This document shows, in pieces, positions 1,090 to 7,376 of a stretch of 64,000 nt of DNA. The notes beneath the pieces are model-generated. The model saw only the letters and a list, made by a program, of their open reading frames with translations. It was not told where the DNA came from and did not search any database. The DNA comes from an uncultured Clostridia bacterium (GTDB lineage: Bacteria > Bacillota > Clostridia > Christensenellales > Borkfalkiaceae), in NCBI GenBank assembly GCA_947626105.1, contig CANQQY010000003.1:1-64000 (forward strand), in the 5' to 3' direction. The position numbers were made by a program, and so were the translations under genes. Numbering within the stretch: the first letter of the stretch is position 1; each line of letters begins with the position of its first letter.

Positions 1090-1539
1090 TTTTTTCCAAG
1101 AGATCCATGATTCGGGATCTACGAGGTTTTCGATCGCTCTTCTGTAAGGCAGGAGAGCCTTTTTTATGCCCTTTTTCCAGCATGAGCAGGGCGAACATTC
1201 GCCGTTCTTCAAGAATGTGCCCTTGTCAAAGCAACGTCGGCAATTGTGTAAAGTGTCATCCTCCCACGGGAAGAAGCCGAGTTCTAAAAGACGCATCCGC
1301 TTTTCTTGAAAGGCTGAGTAGGCCGTCACACCGCTTGAATCTTTGAGCGTGTCGGGGAATGATACCGAAATGAGATATTCTACTTGCAGATTCCTATACT
1401 CATCGTCTTTTTCAAGTTCGGCTTTTACCCGCTCGCGCCGTTCCCGCTCTTCACGTTGGATGCGGGTGTAGTAGAAATCGCGCAGCTCCTCTTTTTGGGT
1501 CTTGAACTTTTTGCAGATGTTCCTAATCGTGAAAAGCAC
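1084..1539 (-). CDS. zinc-cluster protein resembling the N-terminal part of DnaC/DnaI-type helicase loaders
   Basis: The 151-residue protein starts with a charged coiled-coil region (REERERRERVKAELEKDD). A Cys-rich knuckle follows (CRRCFDKGTFLKNGECSPCSC) at about residues 99-119. This layout resembles the N-terminal part of Firmicutes helicase loaders, where a helical arm is followed by CxxC-(10-15)-CxC. The AAA+ ATPase part that should follow is missing: the frame ends about 30 residues after the knuckle with no Walker motif. It could be a stand-alone helicase-interacting or DNA-binding accessory of the element. The likely start is GTG at 1539. An in-frame mini-ORF of three codons (ATG at 1560, stop at 1549) lies just upstream. 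It is read from a consensus promoter at 1580-1608. Confidence 0.55.
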   Translation of the reverse strand: MLFTIRNICKKFKTQKEELRDFYYTRIQREERERRERVKAELEKDDEYRNLQVEYLISVSFPDTLKDSSGVTAYSAFQEKRMRLLELGFFPWEDDTLHNCRRCFDKGTFLKNGECSPCSCWKKGIKKALLPYRRAIENLVDPESWISWKKS

Positions 1540-1579
1540 CTTGATTTCTCATTGCTCCATATTTATGGATTTTGGAACT

Positions 1580-1630
1580 ATTATAAATCCACAGATATGG
1601 ATTGTCAAGTATAAAATCCACATTTATGGT
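1580..1630. promoter_or_regulatory. overlapping divergent promoters with a palindromic operator in the spacer
   Basis: On the minus strand, a perfect TTGACA (complement of 1603-1608) and a perfect TATAAT (complement of 1580-1585) are 17 bases apart. The spacer and first base of the -35 box are occupied by the palindrome AATCCA-N6-TGGATT (1586-1603). On the plus strand, TTGTCA (1602-1607) and TATGGT (1625-1630) are also 17 apart. Further half sites (AATCCA or its complement TGGATT) recur at about 1567, 1615, 1653 and 1661. The natural reading is that the XRE repressor encoded at 1659 binds here, controlling itself and the divergent gene, as in a temperate-element switch. Confidence 0.7.
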
Positions 1631-2433: not shown

Positions 2434-2685
2434 ATGAACGGAAGCGTTTTACACATTGAGCTGACGCAGGGTGACGTTGAGGCGCTATTGAGCGCTGCCG
2501 ACCGCATTTATTCGTTCATCGGATATGCGCAAGGAGAAGAGGCGCGGTATCAGATGCGCCGCGATCAGATCGTCGTTGCTCTGCCGTTGGGTAAAAAAAA
2601 GCCGTCAAGAAGGGGATCCGTGACGGGGAGGAGGTGGAAAGGGGTTCAGAATCGAAAAAGAATCGGCTTTCCAAATCGGCATTAA
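2434..2685 (+). CDS. small hypothetical protein between repressor and integrase
   Basis: This 83-residue ORF begins at an ATG with GGGAG just upstream. The first half looks like a folded small domain (HIELTQGDVEALLSAADRIYSFIGYAQGEEARY). The second half is very basic (KKKPSRRGSVTGRRWKG). Its location directly before the integrase is where excisionases are often found, but no MerR- or HTH-type excisionase motif is visible. It is more GC-rich than the genes to the left. Confidence 0.5.
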   Translation: MNGSVLHIELTQGDVEALLSAADRIYSFIGYAQGEEARYQMRRDQIVVALPLGKKKPSRRGSVTGRRWKGVQNRKRIGFPNRH

Positions 2686-2711
2686 GTAAATTTCAAAAGG
2701 AGATTTCTAAG

Positions 2712-3752
2712 ATGCCGAAAAATTTGCAGATGATCATTAAAAACGCGACTGCAAGAGATCCCCGATTTCATCACCGGGTCTACGAGAAGCGCGTTTGTAT
2801 CGACGGCGTTACGATTTCCGCGTCTTCGGCGGATATTGATCAATGCCAAGTCCTCTTTATGGAGCGACTGACGGAATATCTTTCCCAGCTCGTGGGGGAG
2901 ACCGAGAGGAAGGGCGCAAAGCGCCCGCTCTCGATGAACATGAGTTTTGCCGAGTTCTCGGAGATGTGGTTTGAGAAGATCCACAAGAACAAAGTCATCC
3001 CCGATACGCTGTATTCGGATCTCGCCGTATTCAGGAAGCACGTCCTTCCCTTTTTCGGCAACCGACGGCTGCGCTCTATCACCACGGCGGACTGTATCGA
3101 GTTCCTTCTTCACATGAAGGGGAAGGGATTGTCAAGGACGGTGGAGCAGTGCGACGGTCTTCTGCGGCAAGTCTTACAGTACGCCGTGGACAGCGAGCTC
3201 ATCCGAAAACATCCTATGGCGACTCTGAAGCGAGTGAAGGGCGAGCGCGAAAACGGTGTTCCTCTCACCAAAGATGAGGAGCGGGAATTTTTGCGATCGC
3301 TCGAAGGTACAAAGTACGAGATGATCTTTGTCGTCCGCCTTTATACGGGTATCAGACCCTGCGAGGTCTCGACCGTTCGGCTCGACGGGGAGTTTATCGT
3401 AGCTCAAAACCGAAAGCAGAAGAATCAAAAGCGTATCGTGTATAAGAAGATCCCGATCACGCCAATGTTACGGCCGTATCTTGCAAAGCTGAAAGAGGCT
3501 CTTTTGCATTGGGACGAGCTGACATCGCGGTCGTCTTCCTTCTACCGAGATGAGTTTGTACGGCATTGCCCCGGCGATCATACGTCTTACGACCTTCGCA
3601 CGACGTTCGCGACGCGCTGCCAAGAATGCGGAGCTTCCGAGCAGGCGGTTCAGGCGTGGATGGGACATTCGCCGGGCACGCTTTTGGGAAAGGTTTATAC
3701 GAAATTGTCGGACGAATACCTTCTGAAAGAAGGTAAAAAGGTTAAATATTAA
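2712..3752 (+). CDS. int: tyrosine recombinase (integrase) of the element
   Basis: This is a phage-type site-specific recombinase. From ATG 2712 it has 346 residues, with a strong AAAAGGAG site nine bases upstream. A GTG at 2634 would add 26 residues but overlaps the previous gene. The N-terminal part carries a SAM-like core-binding domain (SFAEFSEMWFEKIHKNKVIPDTL). The catalytic domain shows the first Arg in TGIRPCE, the beta-hairpin Lys in YKKIPI, the second Arg in YDLRTTFAT, His in MGHSPG and the nucleophilic Tyr in VYTKL. The first box II residue is Tyr rather than the usual His. It lies about 120 bases from the tRNA-Pro fragment that is its likely target site. Confidence 0.92.
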   Translation: MPKNLQMIIKNATARDPRFHHRVYEKRVCIDGVTISASSADIDQCQVLFMERLTEYLSQLVGETERKGAKRPLSMNMSFAEFSEMWFEKIHKNKVIPDTLYSDLAVFRKHVLPFFGNRRLRSITTADCIEFLLHMKGKGLSRTVEQCDGLLRQVLQYAVDSELIRKHPMATLKRVKGERENGVPLTKDEEREFLRSLEGTKYEMIFVVRLYTGIRPCEVSTVRLDGEFIVAQNRKQKNQKRIVYKKIPITPMLRPYLAKLKEALLHWDELTSRSSSFYRDEFVRHCPGDHTSYDLRTTFATRCQECGASEQAVQAWMGHSPGTLLGKVYTKLSDEYLLKEGKKVKY

Positions 3753-3775: not shown

Positions 3776-3870
3776 GATGGATCCAAGTTTTTCCCCTTTG
3801 AAAAACATCGTTTTTGGCCTCAAAATAGGCTAAAAATGGCCGTTTTTTGGGGAAAATCGCCATTTGGGCG

Positions 3871-3916
3871 CTTCGGGACCAAGAGGTCGCGTGTTCAAAT
3901 CACGTCTCCTCGACCA
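3871..3916 (+). other. attR: attachment site: 3' portion of a tRNA-Pro gene
   Basis: The segment reads as the right part of a tRNA: anticodon loop TTCGGGA (anticodon CGG, proline), the T arm with loop TTCAAAT, a 3' acceptor strand and terminal CCA at 3914-3916. The 5' half is absent, and the bases before 3871 do not pair with the anticodon or acceptor strands. This is the scar left when an element integrates into the 3' end of a tRNA gene. The intact, regenerated tRNA-Pro should lie to the left of the window. Confidence 0.75.
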
Positions 3917-3953
3917 AAACAAGACACGGGCATGCGTCCGTGTCTTGTTTTAT
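3917..3953 (+). terminator. intrinsic terminator after the tRNA-Pro fragment
   Basis: A perfect ten-base stem (CAAGACACGG with CCGTGTCTTG) and a seven-base loop are followed by TTTTA. It is immediately downstream of the CCA end, as expected of the original tRNA terminator. From here to 4228 I see no gene. Confidence 0.8.
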
Positions 3954-4228
3954 GTTATGGCTTGTATTACGCGGCCTCATGGTCAAAAAAGGGGCTCCCG
4001 AAAATATCGCAAAGTTTCTCTTGACAAAAGTCGTGGAATAGTATTGCTATTTAGGCAGACGGGTTTTGCAAGGTACCTGCGGAAACCGTCACCCCGAGTC
4101 TTGCGCAACGCGCCGGCTCGGATTTTTTTATTCTTTGAAGCCTATTTCAACGATTTTTGGGTCTTTTGATAGATTTTGCAGTTTCTTTGTATCGTAAGGA
4201 CGAACAAAAGAAGTGTAAAAAGAGGACA

Positions 4229-4299
4229 AAAAAATAGGGAGCAAGCCCTGCGGTTGAGATCCGCCAACTCTGACAAGCTCCCTACAGTATCTCTACTGC
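4229..4299 (-). ncRNA. small structured RNA gene with its own promoter and terminator
   Basis: On the minus strand, transcription from the promoter at 4306-4334 should start near 4299. The RNA would be about 70 bases. The outer stem AGGGAGC/GCTCCCT (4277-4283 with 4236-4242) is followed by a run of seven T on this strand (4228-4234), which is a terminator shape. Inside, GCGG and CCGC can form a small hairpin. Alternatively, GTTG/CAAC plus GCG/CGC could form an H-type pseudoknot. No ORF of note fits. I do not recognise the family with certainty. It could be a trans-acting RNA or a short attenuated leader with no following gene. Confidence 0.6.
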
Positions 4300-4305
4300 A
4301 CTATT

Positions 4306-4334
4306 ATTATATCTCACTACCGGTGAAAAGTCAA
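4306..4334 (-). promoter_or_regulatory. promoter of the small RNA
   Basis: On the minus strand, TTGACT (complement of 4329-4334) and a perfect TATAAT (complement of 4306-4311) are 17 bases apart. Nothing but the small RNA follows in this direction. Confidence 0.75.
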
Positions 4335-4437
4335 TAGATTTATTTTAGCAATATCCGAAGTTGTCAAATGTTTTTGGAAACGAAAAAACCGGGAAGAGAG
4401 GAGCTGAACGGAATTTTCGAAATTTCCGAAAAAACGC

Positions 4438-4467
4438 TTGACAGAACCTCTTCCGCTATGATAGGAT
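4438..4467 (+). promoter_or_regulatory. promoter of the metNIQ leader
   Basis: A perfect -35 TTGACA (4438-4443) and a -10 TAGGAT (4462-4467) are 18 bases apart. Transcription would start near 4474, about 12 bases before the first leader peptide and about 320 bases before metN. Confidence 0.65.
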
Positions 4468-4485
4468 ATAGGTACAGGTGTAAAA

Positions 4486-4569
4486 ATGATAGCTATTTTT
4501 GTGAAAAACGAAATGATGCGCATGTGCAAAGCCCGGGCAGAAATGTACGGACTTGTTGCCGCGCGCTGA
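4486..4569 (+). CDS. methionine leader peptide 1 of the metNIQ operon
   Basis: This 27-residue ORF starts at ATG 4486 after a modest CAGGTG site and ends at TGA 4569. Methionines are at residues 1, 10, 11, 13 and 20. The cluster ATG-ATG-CGC-ATG-TGC at 4513-4527 lies four bases before the antiterminator arm. Five Met in 27 codons upstream of a methionine transporter fits a ribosome-stalling control peptide. The product itself probably has no function. It is inferred from layout, not homology. Confidence 0.6.
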   Translation: MIAIFVKNEMMRMCKARAEMYGLVAAR

Positions 4570-4625
4570 AAACGGTTCAAGTCGATACATTCCGCCCCGG
4601 GCATTCGTGCTTCGGGGCTTTTTTA
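4531..4625 (+). promoter_or_regulatory. transcription attenuator 1 (antiterminator and terminator)
   Basis: Terminator: GCCCCG (4594-4599) pairs with CGGGGC (4613-4618), extended by GCA/TGC around a TTCG loop, then six T (4619-4624). Alternative hairpin: GCCCGGG (4531-4537) pairs with CCCGGGC (4596-4602), ATGTA (4543-4547) with TACAT (4586-4590), and GACTTG (4550-4555) with CAAGTC (4578-4583). The two structures share 4594-4602 and exclude each other. A ribosome stalled at the Met cluster leaves the antiterminator free. One that reaches the stop codon at 4567 covers its 5' strand, so the terminator forms. That predicts transcription only when charged Met-tRNA is low. Confidence 0.65.
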
Positions 4626-4649
4626 TTTGAAAAATCGGGAGATACAAGG

Positions 4650-4799
4650 ATGTTTTTATTGATTATGAGCGGCATGATGCAAATGTGTTCCTGCGGGCGG
4701 TTCCCTGCGGGAGATTTGCCATGCCGGCAGATCTTTCAACGGTGCGCCCGCGGTTCTTGCCGCGGGTTTTTATTTTATCCTGGAAAGGAGAGGTCATGA
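4650..4799 (+). CDS. methionine leader peptide 2, overlapping the metN start
   Basis: This 49-residue ORF starts at ATG 4650 behind GGGAGA (4637-4642). Methionines are at residues 1, 6, 9, 10 and 12. The cluster ATG-ATG-CAA-ATG-TGT (4674-4688) matches leader 1 in order and spacing. Unlike leader 1, the frame stays open through the second terminator. Its TGA (4797-4799) overlaps the metN ATG (4796-4798), so it may also couple translation to metN. Residues 13-37 contain five cysteines, which may reflect codons forced by the hairpin or a second sensed amino acid. Expression is unproven. Confidence 0.5.
   Translation: MFLLIMSGMMQMCSCGRFPAGDLPCRQIFQRCARGSCRGFLFYPGKERS
4693..4776 (+). promoter_or_regulatory. 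transcription attenuator 2 (antiterminator and terminator)
   Basis: Terminator: CCCGCGG (4747-4753), loop TTCTTG and CCGCGGG (4760-4766) are followed by TTTTTATTTT. Competing pairing: GCGGGCG (4693-4699) with CGCCCGC (4745-4751), enclosing an internal hairpin GATTTGCC/GGCAGATC (4713-4720 with 4726-4733). The antiterminator arm begins seven bases after the last clustered Met codon, much as in attenuator 1. The leader peptide does not stop before the terminator, so the exact ribosome logic is less clear than in attenuator 1. Confidence 0.6.
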
Positions 4800-5785
4800 T
4801 AGAACTCAAACACATCACAAAAGAATTTTCGGCAAAGGGGGGCGCGTTTCTCGCGCTCGACGATGTGTCGCTCACCGTGCGGGACGGCGAGATCTTCGGG
4901 ATCATCGGGCTTTCGGGGGCGGGGAAAAGCACCCTCGTAAGATGCGTGAATCTTCTCGAAAGACCCACCCGCGGGCAAGTCTTTCTCGACGGGGAGGAGC
5001 TCACCGCCATGCGGGAGAAGCGGTTGAGGGAGGTGCGGCGGAACATCGGCATGATATTCCAGAATTTCAACCTTTTGGAACAGCGGACGGCGGAGGCGAA
5101 CGTGCGCTTCCCTCTCGAGATCGCAGGCGTGAAACGGGAGGCGGCGCGGCGGAGGGCGGAGGAGCTCCTCTCTCTCGTGGGGCTGGGCGATAAAGCGAAG
5201 TCCTATCCCTCCCAGCTCTCGGGCGGACAGAAACAGCGGGTCGCGATCGCCCGCGCGCTTGCGACGCAGCCTAAGGTACTCCTCTGCGACGAGGCGACGA
5301 GCGCGCTCGACCCGTCGACGACCTTTTCGATCCTGGATCTTTTGCAGAAGATCAACCGCGACATGGGCGTCACGATCGTCGTCATTACGCACGAAATGCG
5401 GGTCGTGGAGCGCATCTGCGATCGGGTCGCCGTCCTCGACAGGGGCAGGATCGCGGAGGAGGGGACGGTCGCGGAGGTGTTCTCCCTTCCGAGGTCCGAG
5501 ATCGCGAAAAAACTCGTGCTCCCCGATCTTACCCGCGCCGCCCGACGGGCGGATGGAAGGGTGTGGCGGCTCGTTTTCAACGGGCAGAACTCGGACATGC
5601 CCCTGATCTTTTCGCTCGCAAGCGAGAAGGGCGTCGCCGTCAACATTCTCTATGCGGACACGCGTGAGATCGGGGGAGGGACGTTCGGGCACATGCTCGT
5701 GGGGCTCGCCCGCGAGGAAAACGAACCGATCCTTACGGCGTTCTGCCGTGAAAGAGGGGTCGAATGCAGGGAGGAAATCGTATGA
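4796..5785 (+). CDS. metN: methionine ABC transporter, ATP-binding protein
   Basis: This is the ATPase of the D/L-methionine importer (MetNIQ). It has 329 residues. Walker A GLSGAGKS is at 38-45, the signature LSGGQ at 141-145, Walker B VLLCDE at 161-166, and the switch His in ITHE at about 199. A C-terminal NIL domain (about 250-329) in this family binds methionine and gives feedback inhibition. ATG 4796 was chosen because homologous MetN proteins begin MIxLxxIxKxF and AAAGGAGAGG lies just upstream. It is the first gene of metN-metI-metQ and overlaps metI by ATGA. Expression is probably set by the two attenuators upstream. Confidence 0.95.
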   Translation: MIELKHITKEFSAKGGAFLALDDVSLTVRDGEIFGIIGLSGAGKSTLVRCVNLLERPTRGQVFLDGEELTAMREKRLREVRRNIGMIFQNFNLLEQRTAEANVRFPLEIAGVKREAARRRAEELLSLVGLGDKAKSYPSQLSGGQKQRVAIARALATQPKVLLCDEATSALDPSTTFSILDLLQKINRDMGVTIVVITHEMRVVERICDRVAVLDRGRIAEEGTVAEVFSLPRSEIAKKLVLPDLTRAARRADGRVWRLVFNGQNSDMPLIFSLASEKGVAVNILYADTREIGGGTFGHMLVGLAREENEPILTAFCRERGVECREEIV

Positions 5786-6507
5786 GCAGATTATTTGCGC
5801 AGCTCGGGTTCGGGGGATTTGCCCTCGGCGTTTGGGAAACCGTCTACATGACCGCCGTTTCCACCGCGGTCGCCTATCTCGCGGGGCTTCCGCTCGGGAT
5901 CCTTCTCTGCGTCACGGACAGGGACGGGCTCAAACCGATCCCCTGGCTGAATAAGATCGTGGGGTTTGCCGTCAATATTTTCAGAAGCATTCCCTTCATC
6001 ATTCTCATCGTTGCGCTCATTCCCGCCGCGCGGGCGGTCGTGGGGACGAGCATCGGGAACGGGGCGATGATCTTCATGCTTTCCGTCGCCGCCGCGCCCT
6101 ATGTCGCGCGCATGGTGGAGAGTTCGCTCAAAGAAGTGGATAAAGGCGTCGTGGAGGCGGCGCGCTCGATGGGGGCGGGGACGTTCACAATCATCCGCAA
6201 AACGCTCCTGCCCGAGGCGAAGCCCTCGCTGATCGTGGGAGCCGTCATCTCCACGGTGACGGTGCTCGGCTATTCCGCCATGGCGGGGACGATCGCGGGC
6301 GGCGGGCTCGGCGCGATCGCCGTGACGCAGGCGAGGCCTTCGGGCGCAGAGGACGTCATCTGGCTGTGCGTCGCGCTTACCGTCGTCATCGTCCAGATCT
6401 TGCAGGAGCTGGGCATGTACCTTGCGAAGCGTACCGACCGCCGCATCCAAAGGCGCAGAAGGGGTAAAACCCAAAAAACCGCGGAAGAAAATCCGCATCA
6501 ATCTTAA
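5782..6507 (+). CDS. metI: methionine ABC transporter, permease
   Basis: This is the membrane channel of the methionine importer, with 241 residues and about five to six transmembrane helices. The EAA loop that docks on MetN is visible at about 125-150 (EAARSMGAGTFTIIRKTLLPEA). ATG 5782 overlaps the metN stop codon and has GGGAGGAAAT upstream, so it is translationally coupled. The basic, Gln-rich tail after residue 215 is longer than I expect for MetI but shows no domain. Confidence 0.95.
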   Translation: MSRLFAQLGFGGFALGVWETVYMTAVSTAVAYLAGLPLGILLCVTDRDGLKPIPWLNKIVGFAVNIFRSIPFIILIVALIPAARAVVGTSIGNGAMIFMLSVAAAPYVARMVESSLKEVDKGVVEAARSMGAGTFTIIRKTLLPEAKPSLIVGAVISTVTVLGYSAMAGTIAGGGLGAIAVTQARPSGAEDVIWLCVALTVVIVQILQELGMYLAKRTDRRIQRRRRGKTQKTAEENPHQS

Positions 6508-6533: not shown

Positions 6534-7376
6534 ATGAAAAAACTCATCAAAGGCATCTTTGCCGCAACGCTCGCCCTCGGGCTGACCTTTTCCGCCGCCG
6601 CCTGCGGCAGGAACATCGACACGGATCCCAACGTCATCGTCGTCGGCGCAAGCGCGACGCCGCACGCGGAGATCCTCGCCGTCATCAAAGACGACCTTGC
6701 GGAGGCGGGGTATACCCTCGAAATCAAGACGTTCGATGACTATATCACGCCCAACACCGCGCTCGAGGAGGGATCCGTCGACGCAAACTATTTCCAGCAT
6801 ACGCCCTATCTCAACGCCTTCAACGAGGAATACGGCACCCATCTTGCGGCGGTGGAGAAGATCCATTACGAGCCCTTCGGCGTTTACGGCAACGTGACAA
6901 AAGAACAGTACGAAAGCGTCAAAACGGGAAGGACGATCCTTGTGCCGAACGACAGCAGCAACCTGACCCGCGCGCTCTTCGTGCTCAGGGACGAGGGCTA
7001 TATCTCGCTTCCCGACGGCGCTTCGCCCGAGCAAAATCTCACGGAGCACGACATCGCGGACGCAAAGGGCAATACCGTGCGCCCCGTACAGGCGGAAACG
7101 GTCGCGCAGCTTTTGCGGGAATCGCAGGATGGGACGATCGCCGTTATCAACGGAAATTATGCGTTGCAGGCGGGGCTCAAAGCGACGGACGCCTTCGCCT
7201 TCGAGGACGCGTACGGGGACGCCGCACAGCTCTATGCAAACGTTCTCGCCGTCAAAGCGGGGAATGAGAACCACCCCAAGATCAAAGCGCTTCTTGCCGC
7301 GCTGAAATCGCAGAAGGTCGTCGATTTCATCAACGAGACGTACGGCGGCGCGGTGCAGGCTGTCTTTTCGGTGTGA
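6534..7376 (+). CDS. metQ: methionine-binding lipoprotein
   Basis: This is the extracytoplasmic solute-binding component of the importer (NlpA/MetQ family), 280 residues. A signal peptide ends in the lipobox SAAAC with the lipidated Cys at 24. The mature start VIVVGASATPHAEIL is typical of MetQ. It also has DDYITPNTALEEGSVDANYFQHTPYL-type family motifs and a C-terminal segment near KALLAALKSQKVVDFI. It starts 26 bases after metI behind AAGGAG. No clear terminator follows, but a new promoter lies before the next gene. Confidence 0.95.
   Translation: MKKLIKGIFAATLALGLTFSAAACGRNIDTDPNVIVVGASATPHAEILAVIKDDLAEAGYTLEIKTFDDYITPNTALEEGSVDANYFQHTPYLNAFNEEYGTHLAAVEKIHYEPFGVYGNVTKEQYESVKTGRTILVPNDSSNLTRALFVLRDEGYISLPDGASPEQNLTEHDIADAKGNTVRPVQAETVAQLLRESQDGTIAVINGNYALQAGLKATDAFAFEDAYGDAAQLYANVLAVKAGNENHPKIKALLAALKSQKVVDFINETYGGAVQAVFSV

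Follow-up and report, generated by a model that had tools for sequence, protein, structure and literature searches.

The DNA before the metNIQ methionine importer in the window (the whole stretch analysed here, 64,000 nucleotides from an uncultured Clostridia bacterium) raises the question of how such an importer might be adjusted to methionine supply where the familiar RNA sensors do not appear. An earlier note, made from the sequence alone, had placed a methionine leader-peptide attenuator at this site and had seen neither a SAM riboswitch nor a T-box. That negative is borne out by Rfam, which at gathering score finds no riboswitch in the window, whether SAM (RF00162) or otherwise, and no T-box (RF00230), and gives no SAM riboswitch or T-box match at the 17 of 43 homologous leader loci that were scanned. 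With E values up to 5 allowed, positions 3850-4850 yield nine matches, all far below cut-off and at chance level, the best being anti-hemB (21 bits against a cut-off of 49.5). Within the same genus, RF00162 is absent from 22 of 23 genomes, including the window's own, where it is found nowhere; two T-box matches below cut-off in that genome lie at places other than the metN leader. In our judgement it is very probable that metNIQ is instead controlled by two tandem ribosome-mediated transcription attenuators that sense charged Met-tRNA.

The three downstream genes match methionine-importer families of NCBIfam, all under the curated cut-offs (Table 1), and the start previously assigned to metN has been corrected. 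Neither metH nor metE was found in the seven same-genus genomes that carry both metN and the leader (13 genomes searched; as the genomes are incomplete, these absences are soft); judged by gene content, the genomes with the leader are apparent methionine auxotrophs. Three congeners without this metN (G001, G004 and G011) give a metH-like match below the curated cut-off, and three others (G008, G010 and G012) give none of metN, metH and metE. Upstream of the leader, positions 3868-3916 resemble the 3' part of a tRNA gene (ending GTTCAAATCACGTCTCCTCGACCA, single copy in the window), at which ARAGORN, run on the window, calls no tRNA; this tRNA-like stretch adjoins a tyrosine-recombinase ORF (2634-3752) and is probably where an integrated element ends, shortly ahead of the metNIQ leader. 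A TTGACA-like box, a GC-rich stretch and a hairpin with a T-run, recognised by eye at 4018-4135, could represent a small RNA; Rfam at E up to 5 gives no match there.

Table 1. Features of the metNIQ leader region and operon (window coordinates)
Feature	Position	Strand	Evidence or remark
Putative sigma-70-type promoter of leader transcript, TTGACA-18-TAGGAT	4438..4467	+	10/12 matches
Leader peptide 1, MIAIFVKNEMMRMCKARAEMYGLVAAR	4486..4569	+	ATG 4486, stop 4567-4569; 27 codons
Putative regulatory Met codons, leader 1: ATG ATG CGC ATG (Met-Met-x-Met)	4513..4524	+	Met-x-Met in 43/43 homologs
Alpha hairpin within leader ORF	4532..4551	+	5' arm common to antiterminator; 96.3% of cells paired
Antiterminator 1	4531..4602	+	GCCCGGG 4531-4537 pairs with CCCGGGC 4596-4602, plus inner helix
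Intrinsic terminator 1 with T-tract	4594..4625	+	Folding, alignment
Leader peptide 2, MFLLIMSGMMQMCSCGRFPAG... (49 aa)	4650..4799	+	R1 match 27.5 bits, E 7e-4 (L001 1355-1480)
Putative regulatory Met codons, leader 2: ATG ATG CAA ATG	4674..4685	+	
Antiterminator 2, CTGCGGGCG with CGCCCGCGG	4691..4753	+	-37.2 kcal/mol, z -3.8 for 4686-4758
Intrinsic terminator 2 with T-tract	4746..4777	+	4740-4780 fold -18.5 kcal/mol, z -3.4; terminator scan
metN, methionine importer ATPase	4796..5785	+	TIGR02314 371 bits (cut-off 499.7)
metI, permease	about 5782..6507	+	ORF from 5764: NF008049 183.9 bits (cut-off 212)
metQ, substrate-binding lipoprotein	6534..7376	+	NF008285 121.3 bits (cut-off 374); TIGR00363 107.8 (cut-off 228.85)

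The first leader has the architecture that the earlier note described. The 27-residue frame with its five Met (start included) and its Met-Met-x-Met cluster is confirmed, as is, by folding, the antiterminator overlapping a terminator: the 3' arm of antiterminator 1 is the 5' arm of terminator 1, so that the two helices overlap. Folding energies are -34.9 kcal/mol (z -3.4) for 4525-4602, which holds the antiterminator, and -16.9 kcal/mol (z -2.5) for 4590-4632, which holds the terminator. A simple terminator scan of the window missed terminator 1 and listed terminator 2, at 4746-4767. A simple regex finds no Shine-Dalgarno match for this leader, and the outermost pair of its alpha hairpin is mismatched. 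A TTGAC box stands within 100 nt upstream of the Met cluster in all 42 homologs with sufficient upstream DNA (L258 is left out of this count; a DNA end cuts the locus, and the apparent match there is an artefact).

Homologous leaders were collected in several ways. To keep the motif from biasing the collection, the first loci were gathered through MetN protein matches only; 15 of these 22 loci (L001-L022) carry an upstream short frame with Met-x-Met, followed by CCCGrGCA....TGCgCGGG and then a terminator. L015 and L017 have Met-bearing upstream frames of a different kind, the upstream regions of L019-L021 have a T-box-like appearance, and no leader of the window type was found upstream at L016, at L018 or in the rest of the L020 region. 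The 15 leaders formed alignment A1 and, from it, covariance model R1, which the window's first leader matches at 99.7 bits, being itself part of the model seed. Run on the family (121 genomes) and on the order (248 genomes), R1 gave 11 distinct matches at E 1.8e-9 or better, all 11 preceding metN, in families f1, f3, f16 and f19; four were already in A1, and two of the matches, L031 and L032, coincide with L014 and L001. On 291 genomes of the class (E 0.001, strict filters) it recovered the window genome and one congener only. A pattern scan of named genomes, requiring Met-x-Met and CCCGRGC, listed at least 119 stretches and added leaders from uncultured Clostridia: 80 of the stretches were run through R1 and yielded 15 leaders, four further stretches (L230, L239, L249 and L258) proved to be leaders when run through R1, and the other 35 listed have no metN within 900 nt downstream.

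With identical copies removed, alignment A2 holds 43 distinct leaders, of which 33 were found, or also found, via MetN, nine by the pattern only and one (L035) by R1 only. All 43 have metN downstream, seen at L216 and L249 as its first 64 and 43 codons only. Among the genomes searched, leaders of the window type occur only within this order, and their hosts are uncultured Clostridia, probably of animal guts. Ten loci with weak R1 matches (E 4e-4 to 0.024) had no metN by tblastn, and these matches were taken as chance. One such site, in a same-genus genome without metN (L037, about 1500-1600, minus strand; R1 E 4e-4), has ATGATGCAGATG directly before a GC-rich hairpin with a T-run, upstream of a putative membrane protein; it may be chance or a leader remnant.

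Both codons of Met-x-Met are present in 43 of 43 leaders, with the codon between them and most neighbours variable, although nine of the 43 came from the pattern that itself required Met-x-Met. The cluster upstream of metN, whose conservation in relatives had been proposed as a check, is kept in frame. An in-frame start is found in 42 of 43 leaders (L258 is cut by the DNA end), and the script-chosen start lies 24, 27, 30 or 33 nt from the Met run in 32 of 43, a distance that is a multiple of three by construction since starts were sought in frame. With 4-mers allowed, 37 of 43 leaders have a Shine-Dalgarno-like match; those with none are L001 (the window), L005, L013, L110, L216 and L239. Also informative is L065, in which the RNA element sits one base closer to the Met run (a spacer of 6 rather than 7) and the peptide after the run reads CKPGLG instead of xxRAE, while Met-x-Met is kept. 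Going by this frame shift, Met-x-Met behaves as though conserved as codons, and the element after it as though conserved as RNA. Short ORFs in which some six residues include three or more Met occur upstream of metN in 31 of 67 regions on the sense strand, in none of the 67 on the antisense strand and in 0.6% of shuffles; an additional 29 metN upstream regions gave 16 and 0 by the same measure.

Three helices share arms in this RNA: alpha, within the ORF; the antiterminator, formed by the 5' arm of alpha and the 5' arm of the terminator; and the terminator. In A2, antiterminator column pair 54:139 is G-C in 18 leaders, A-U in 16 and G-U in nine, with no mismatch in 43 (Fisher p 1e-5, uncorrected for relatedness), and the same terminator base, in pair 139:181, is C-G in 16, U-G in 13 and U-A in 12, with two mismatches. 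Over the whole antiterminator 93.3% of cells are paired, with 18 double-changed cells, and over the terminator 93.0%, with 30; none of 500 shuffles was as good in either case, relatedness not being removed. These are the compensatory changes in both hairpins that the earlier note had suggested looking for. The number of pair types in the antiterminator is not above that of the shuffles, 471 of 500 reaching as high. For alpha, 96.3% of cells are paired, four of seven pairs have both sides changed and five cells are double-changed; its pairing measures were equalled in 0 of 500 shuffles, which ignore relatedness. When the partners are displaced by 1-3 columns, pairing is no higher than 50.5% for antiterminator and terminator or 57.4% for alpha. 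The central stem that spans the stop codon has a mean score of 17.6 against 12.5 in shuffles, reaching p <=0.05 in only 16 of 43 leaders, with a p of 0.06 for the window's own. Covariation in A2 thus supports an antiterminator and an intrinsic terminator that are mutually exclusive.

The spacing of these elements is nearly fixed. The alpha arm follows the last Met codon after 7 nt in 41 of 42 measured leaders and after 6 in L065, and the stop codon follows the end of alpha after 13, 16 or 19 nt in 36 of 42. The front edge of a ribosome lies about 9-10 nt past the A-site codon and its rear about 12-15 nt behind the P site; on that footprint, a ribosome paused at the first Met codon would end immediately ahead of the shared arm, a pause at the last Met would bring it into contact with that arm, and at the stop codon alpha could form directly to its rear. 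For 42 leaders, equilibrium folding in which an unpaired mask represents the ribosome, and in which folding order and steric effects play no part, gave mean antiterminator/terminator probabilities of 0.23/0.73 without a ribosome, 0.47/0.46 with the mask on the run's first Met (the highest antiterminator mean of the four states), 0.06/0.90 on the last Met (the lowest) and 0.31/0.63 at the stop codon. Before the 3' arm of the terminator is made, the antiterminator dominates in the free, last-Met and stop states (means 0.86-0.94). The support that this modelling lends to a switch is mixed.

Sequence comparison shows the ORF, the Met run with its fixed spacing, the covarying alternative helices, the terminator, the association with metN and the tandem copies; from these elements we infer the following course of stalling and folding, the part played by alpha and the response to methionine. 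With ample methionine, the ribosome would pass the Met run, reach the stop codon and sit on the inner stem of the antiterminator; alpha would refold behind it and take the shared 5' arm, and the terminator would form. With charged Met-tRNA in short supply, the ribosome would wait at the first Met codons of the run, covering upstream RNA; the shared arm, 7 nt beyond the last Met codon, would remain available to the 5' arm of the terminator, the antiterminator would form and the importer would be transcribed. The pause is placed at the first rather than the last Met codons because the last-Met mask favoured the terminator and the first-Met mask the antiterminator. The trp-like logic proposed earlier gains comparative support in this scheme, but it may go beyond a ribosome simply occupying the 5' strand of the antiterminator, given that alpha shares that 5' arm and that its distance from the Met codons is constant.

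The earlier note had described a single attenuator. Its first leader stands, and a second attenuator (4650-4777) had been overlooked: immediately downstream lies a homologous leader (MFLLIMSGMMQMC..., 4650-4799) with its own antiterminator and terminator. The sequence ATGATGNNNATGTG occurs twice in the 64-kb window, once per leader, against 0.04 copies expected. The same tandem is present at L002, L003 and L097, with matching antiterminators and terminators; L097 is a near-twin of L003, their leaders being near-identical, and the pair counts as one case. In the window, L002, L003 and L097, R1 finds the second copies at 27.5, 31.5, 26 and 24.7 bits (E 9e-5 to 3e-3). That a model seeded with first leaders only should recognise them supports an origin of leaders 1 and 2 by tandem duplication. 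At L002, L003 and L097 the second leader ends MMQMRTRGLFPTGGLP and a stop after 24 aa; in the window the corresponding stop has been lost, and the frame stays open for 49 codons, ending at a TGA that overlaps the start of metN. This overlap has the form ATGA, and leader 2 might be translationally coupled to metN.

Several points count against an attenuator. Methionine shortage also limits the initiator tRNA needed to start the leader, and in the window leader 1 is without an obvious Shine-Dalgarno sequence and has its outer alpha pair broken, while leader 2 has lost its stop. One alternative is that the leader still carries a terminator but that its Met-rich ORF is no longer regulatory in this genome, leader 2 especially. 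The frame of leader 2 into the metN start and the missing Shine-Dalgarno match of leader 1 fit that idea, yet the helices, Met run and spacing of leader 1 are intact and antiterminator 2 and terminator 2 still fold well, and we think it very unlikely.

The conservation of the downstream element as RNA raises a different alternative, a ligand-binding riboswitch for SAM or methionine whose core would be alpha plus the antiterminator and which would lie in an open frame by chance. Such a riboswitch would fit the retention of the alpha element even out of frame (L065, L064), the fact that several alpha columns are as invariant as the Met codons, and folding that gives both states without any translation. 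It sits poorly with a Met-x-Met that is invariant and in frame with the start codon, with Met-rich leaders in other families that do not match the RNA element (six loci tested), and with the Rfam searches, in which neither the window nor the scanned leaders gave a riboswitch at gathering score and weaker matches were at chance level; we regard it as improbable. The peptide could also act in its own right, with methionine or SAM, and not codon starvation, as the signal on which Met-x-Met...Arg-Ala-Glu would stall the ribosome, and an Arg-Ala-Glu-like stretch is indeed conserved after the Met run in most A1 leaders. That stretch is, however, explained by the RNA hairpin: L063, L064, L065 and L105 retain the hairpin although the stretch is altered or out of frame there. 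Leaders of other families have Met richness in common and nothing more; nascent-peptide arrest accordingly seems highly improbable. Codon-dependent attenuation by charged Met-tRNA is the reading that we carry forward.

T-boxes recognised by Rfam precede metN at 10 of 20 loci without a leader, a set picked in part for T-box-like sequence; of the ten, eight are in the sister genus g26 of the same family and two in other families. All ten have an ATG within GAACATGGT, which we take, from the usual layout of T-boxes, to be the specifier. Five loci that resemble T-boxes by regex or eye (L019, L020, L094, L095 and L108) are below the Rfam cut-off where scanned, and L142 and L143 are regex-positive and Rfam-negative; none of these was accepted. 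Met-rich leaders of unlike sequence precede metN at 22 further loci in other families or genera (six seen by eye, 16 by script among 29 regions). Examples are MESVFATMMMPMSCMSMMMCGS... in f11 and MQITAMMMRMSMMMCEASPRFFCCVA in f4. Because of the likeness among many of them, the number of origins is below 22. R1 recognised none of the first six (L085, at E 0.36, is chance level). Several have a terminator of their own, and at L085 and L017 its 5' arm can form a long antiterminator; L082 and L084 show no convincing one. Neither a Met-rich leader nor an Rfam T-box was found at metN in L083, L086, L087, L089, L093, L096, L124 and L128, nor at ten f4 loci (L120, L123, L125, L126, L127, L129 and L131-L134).

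Other observations at these loci may merit attention. Five f4 leaders (L135, L137, L139, L140 and L142) combine Met runs with Cys near the end (e.g., MTNRCAMRMYMMCACEDSRYLCCAA), and joint Met/Cys sensing is possible. At L090, L109, L111 and L112 a metQ-like coding sequence, recognised by eye, lies directly 5' of metN, an order unlike metN-metI-metQ. A ZMP/ZTP riboswitch at L017 (1085-1168, minus strand), opposite the metN strand, was the only Rfam match among one set of leader loci.

A broader reading, which we offer tentatively and would not yet favour, is that this order has swapped or supplemented a Met T-box of the importer, apparently repeatedly, with Met-codon attenuators, some of them in tandem. 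Since every leader itself begins with fMet, initiator as well as elongator Met-tRNA would be sensed by a switch of this kind. Alpha would then serve as a footprint gauge: at 7 nt, its arm would be just clear of a ribosome on the first Met and in contact with one on the last, so that the hairpin would report where the ribosome waits. Methionine looks like the amino acid for which leader-peptide control is hardest, because starvation also limits initiation, and a conserved set of probable Met attenuators, widespread in the order, makes that problem testable. The T-box and the ribosome would also provide a case in which one tRNA sensor replaces another before the same gene within one family, and the arrangement suggests how apparent methionine auxotrophs may control their importer without a SAM riboswitch.

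Leader-peptide attenuation is textbook biology, with the trp, his, leu and thr operons as the classical cases. The leaders described here resemble those in having a short ORF with many codons for whichever amino acid the downstream genes supply, a competing antiterminator and intrinsic terminator, and a promoter close upstream; they differ in that the amino acid is Met rather than Trp, His, Leu or Thr, that the genes encode an importer rather than biosynthesis, that the 5' arm of the antiterminator is shared with an in-ORF hairpin 7 nt from the Met codons, and that copies occur in tandem. The T-box (RF00230), found before metN in g26 and at two loci of other families, likewise senses charged tRNA, but it has no ORF and binds the tRNA itself. 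Within the Firmicutes, His leader peptides of bacilli are reported in place of a T-box at hisS/hisZ (Naville and Gautheret, 2010, PMC2965389); there too a leader peptide stands in for a T-box, although for histidine and other genes. In Streptococcus, a candidate uORF of fthC may, its authors suggest, have a translation that depends on methionine via initiator tRNA (PMC11109978); the gene is different, and the available text shows no run of Met codons. A 2005 survey of Actinobacteria reported no conserved RNA structure before methionine operons (PMC1262725). A precedent is the metL leader before metNIQ in Streptomyces lividans TK24, an actinobacterium, where a short ORF ending CMCRRMCAF has been proposed as an attenuator on a leaderless transcript with, according to its authors, no typical Rho-independent terminator (PMC8079986); its peptide is unlike ours save in Met/Cys richness. 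The earlier statement that no classical Met-sensing leader is known in this setting is thus tempered by this metNIQ case in print. Our literature search, which covered few subscription papers, recognised no Met leader peptide beyond that of S. lividans. The class of mechanism is a known one, and its Met specificity together with a terminator switch looks new in the literature searched.
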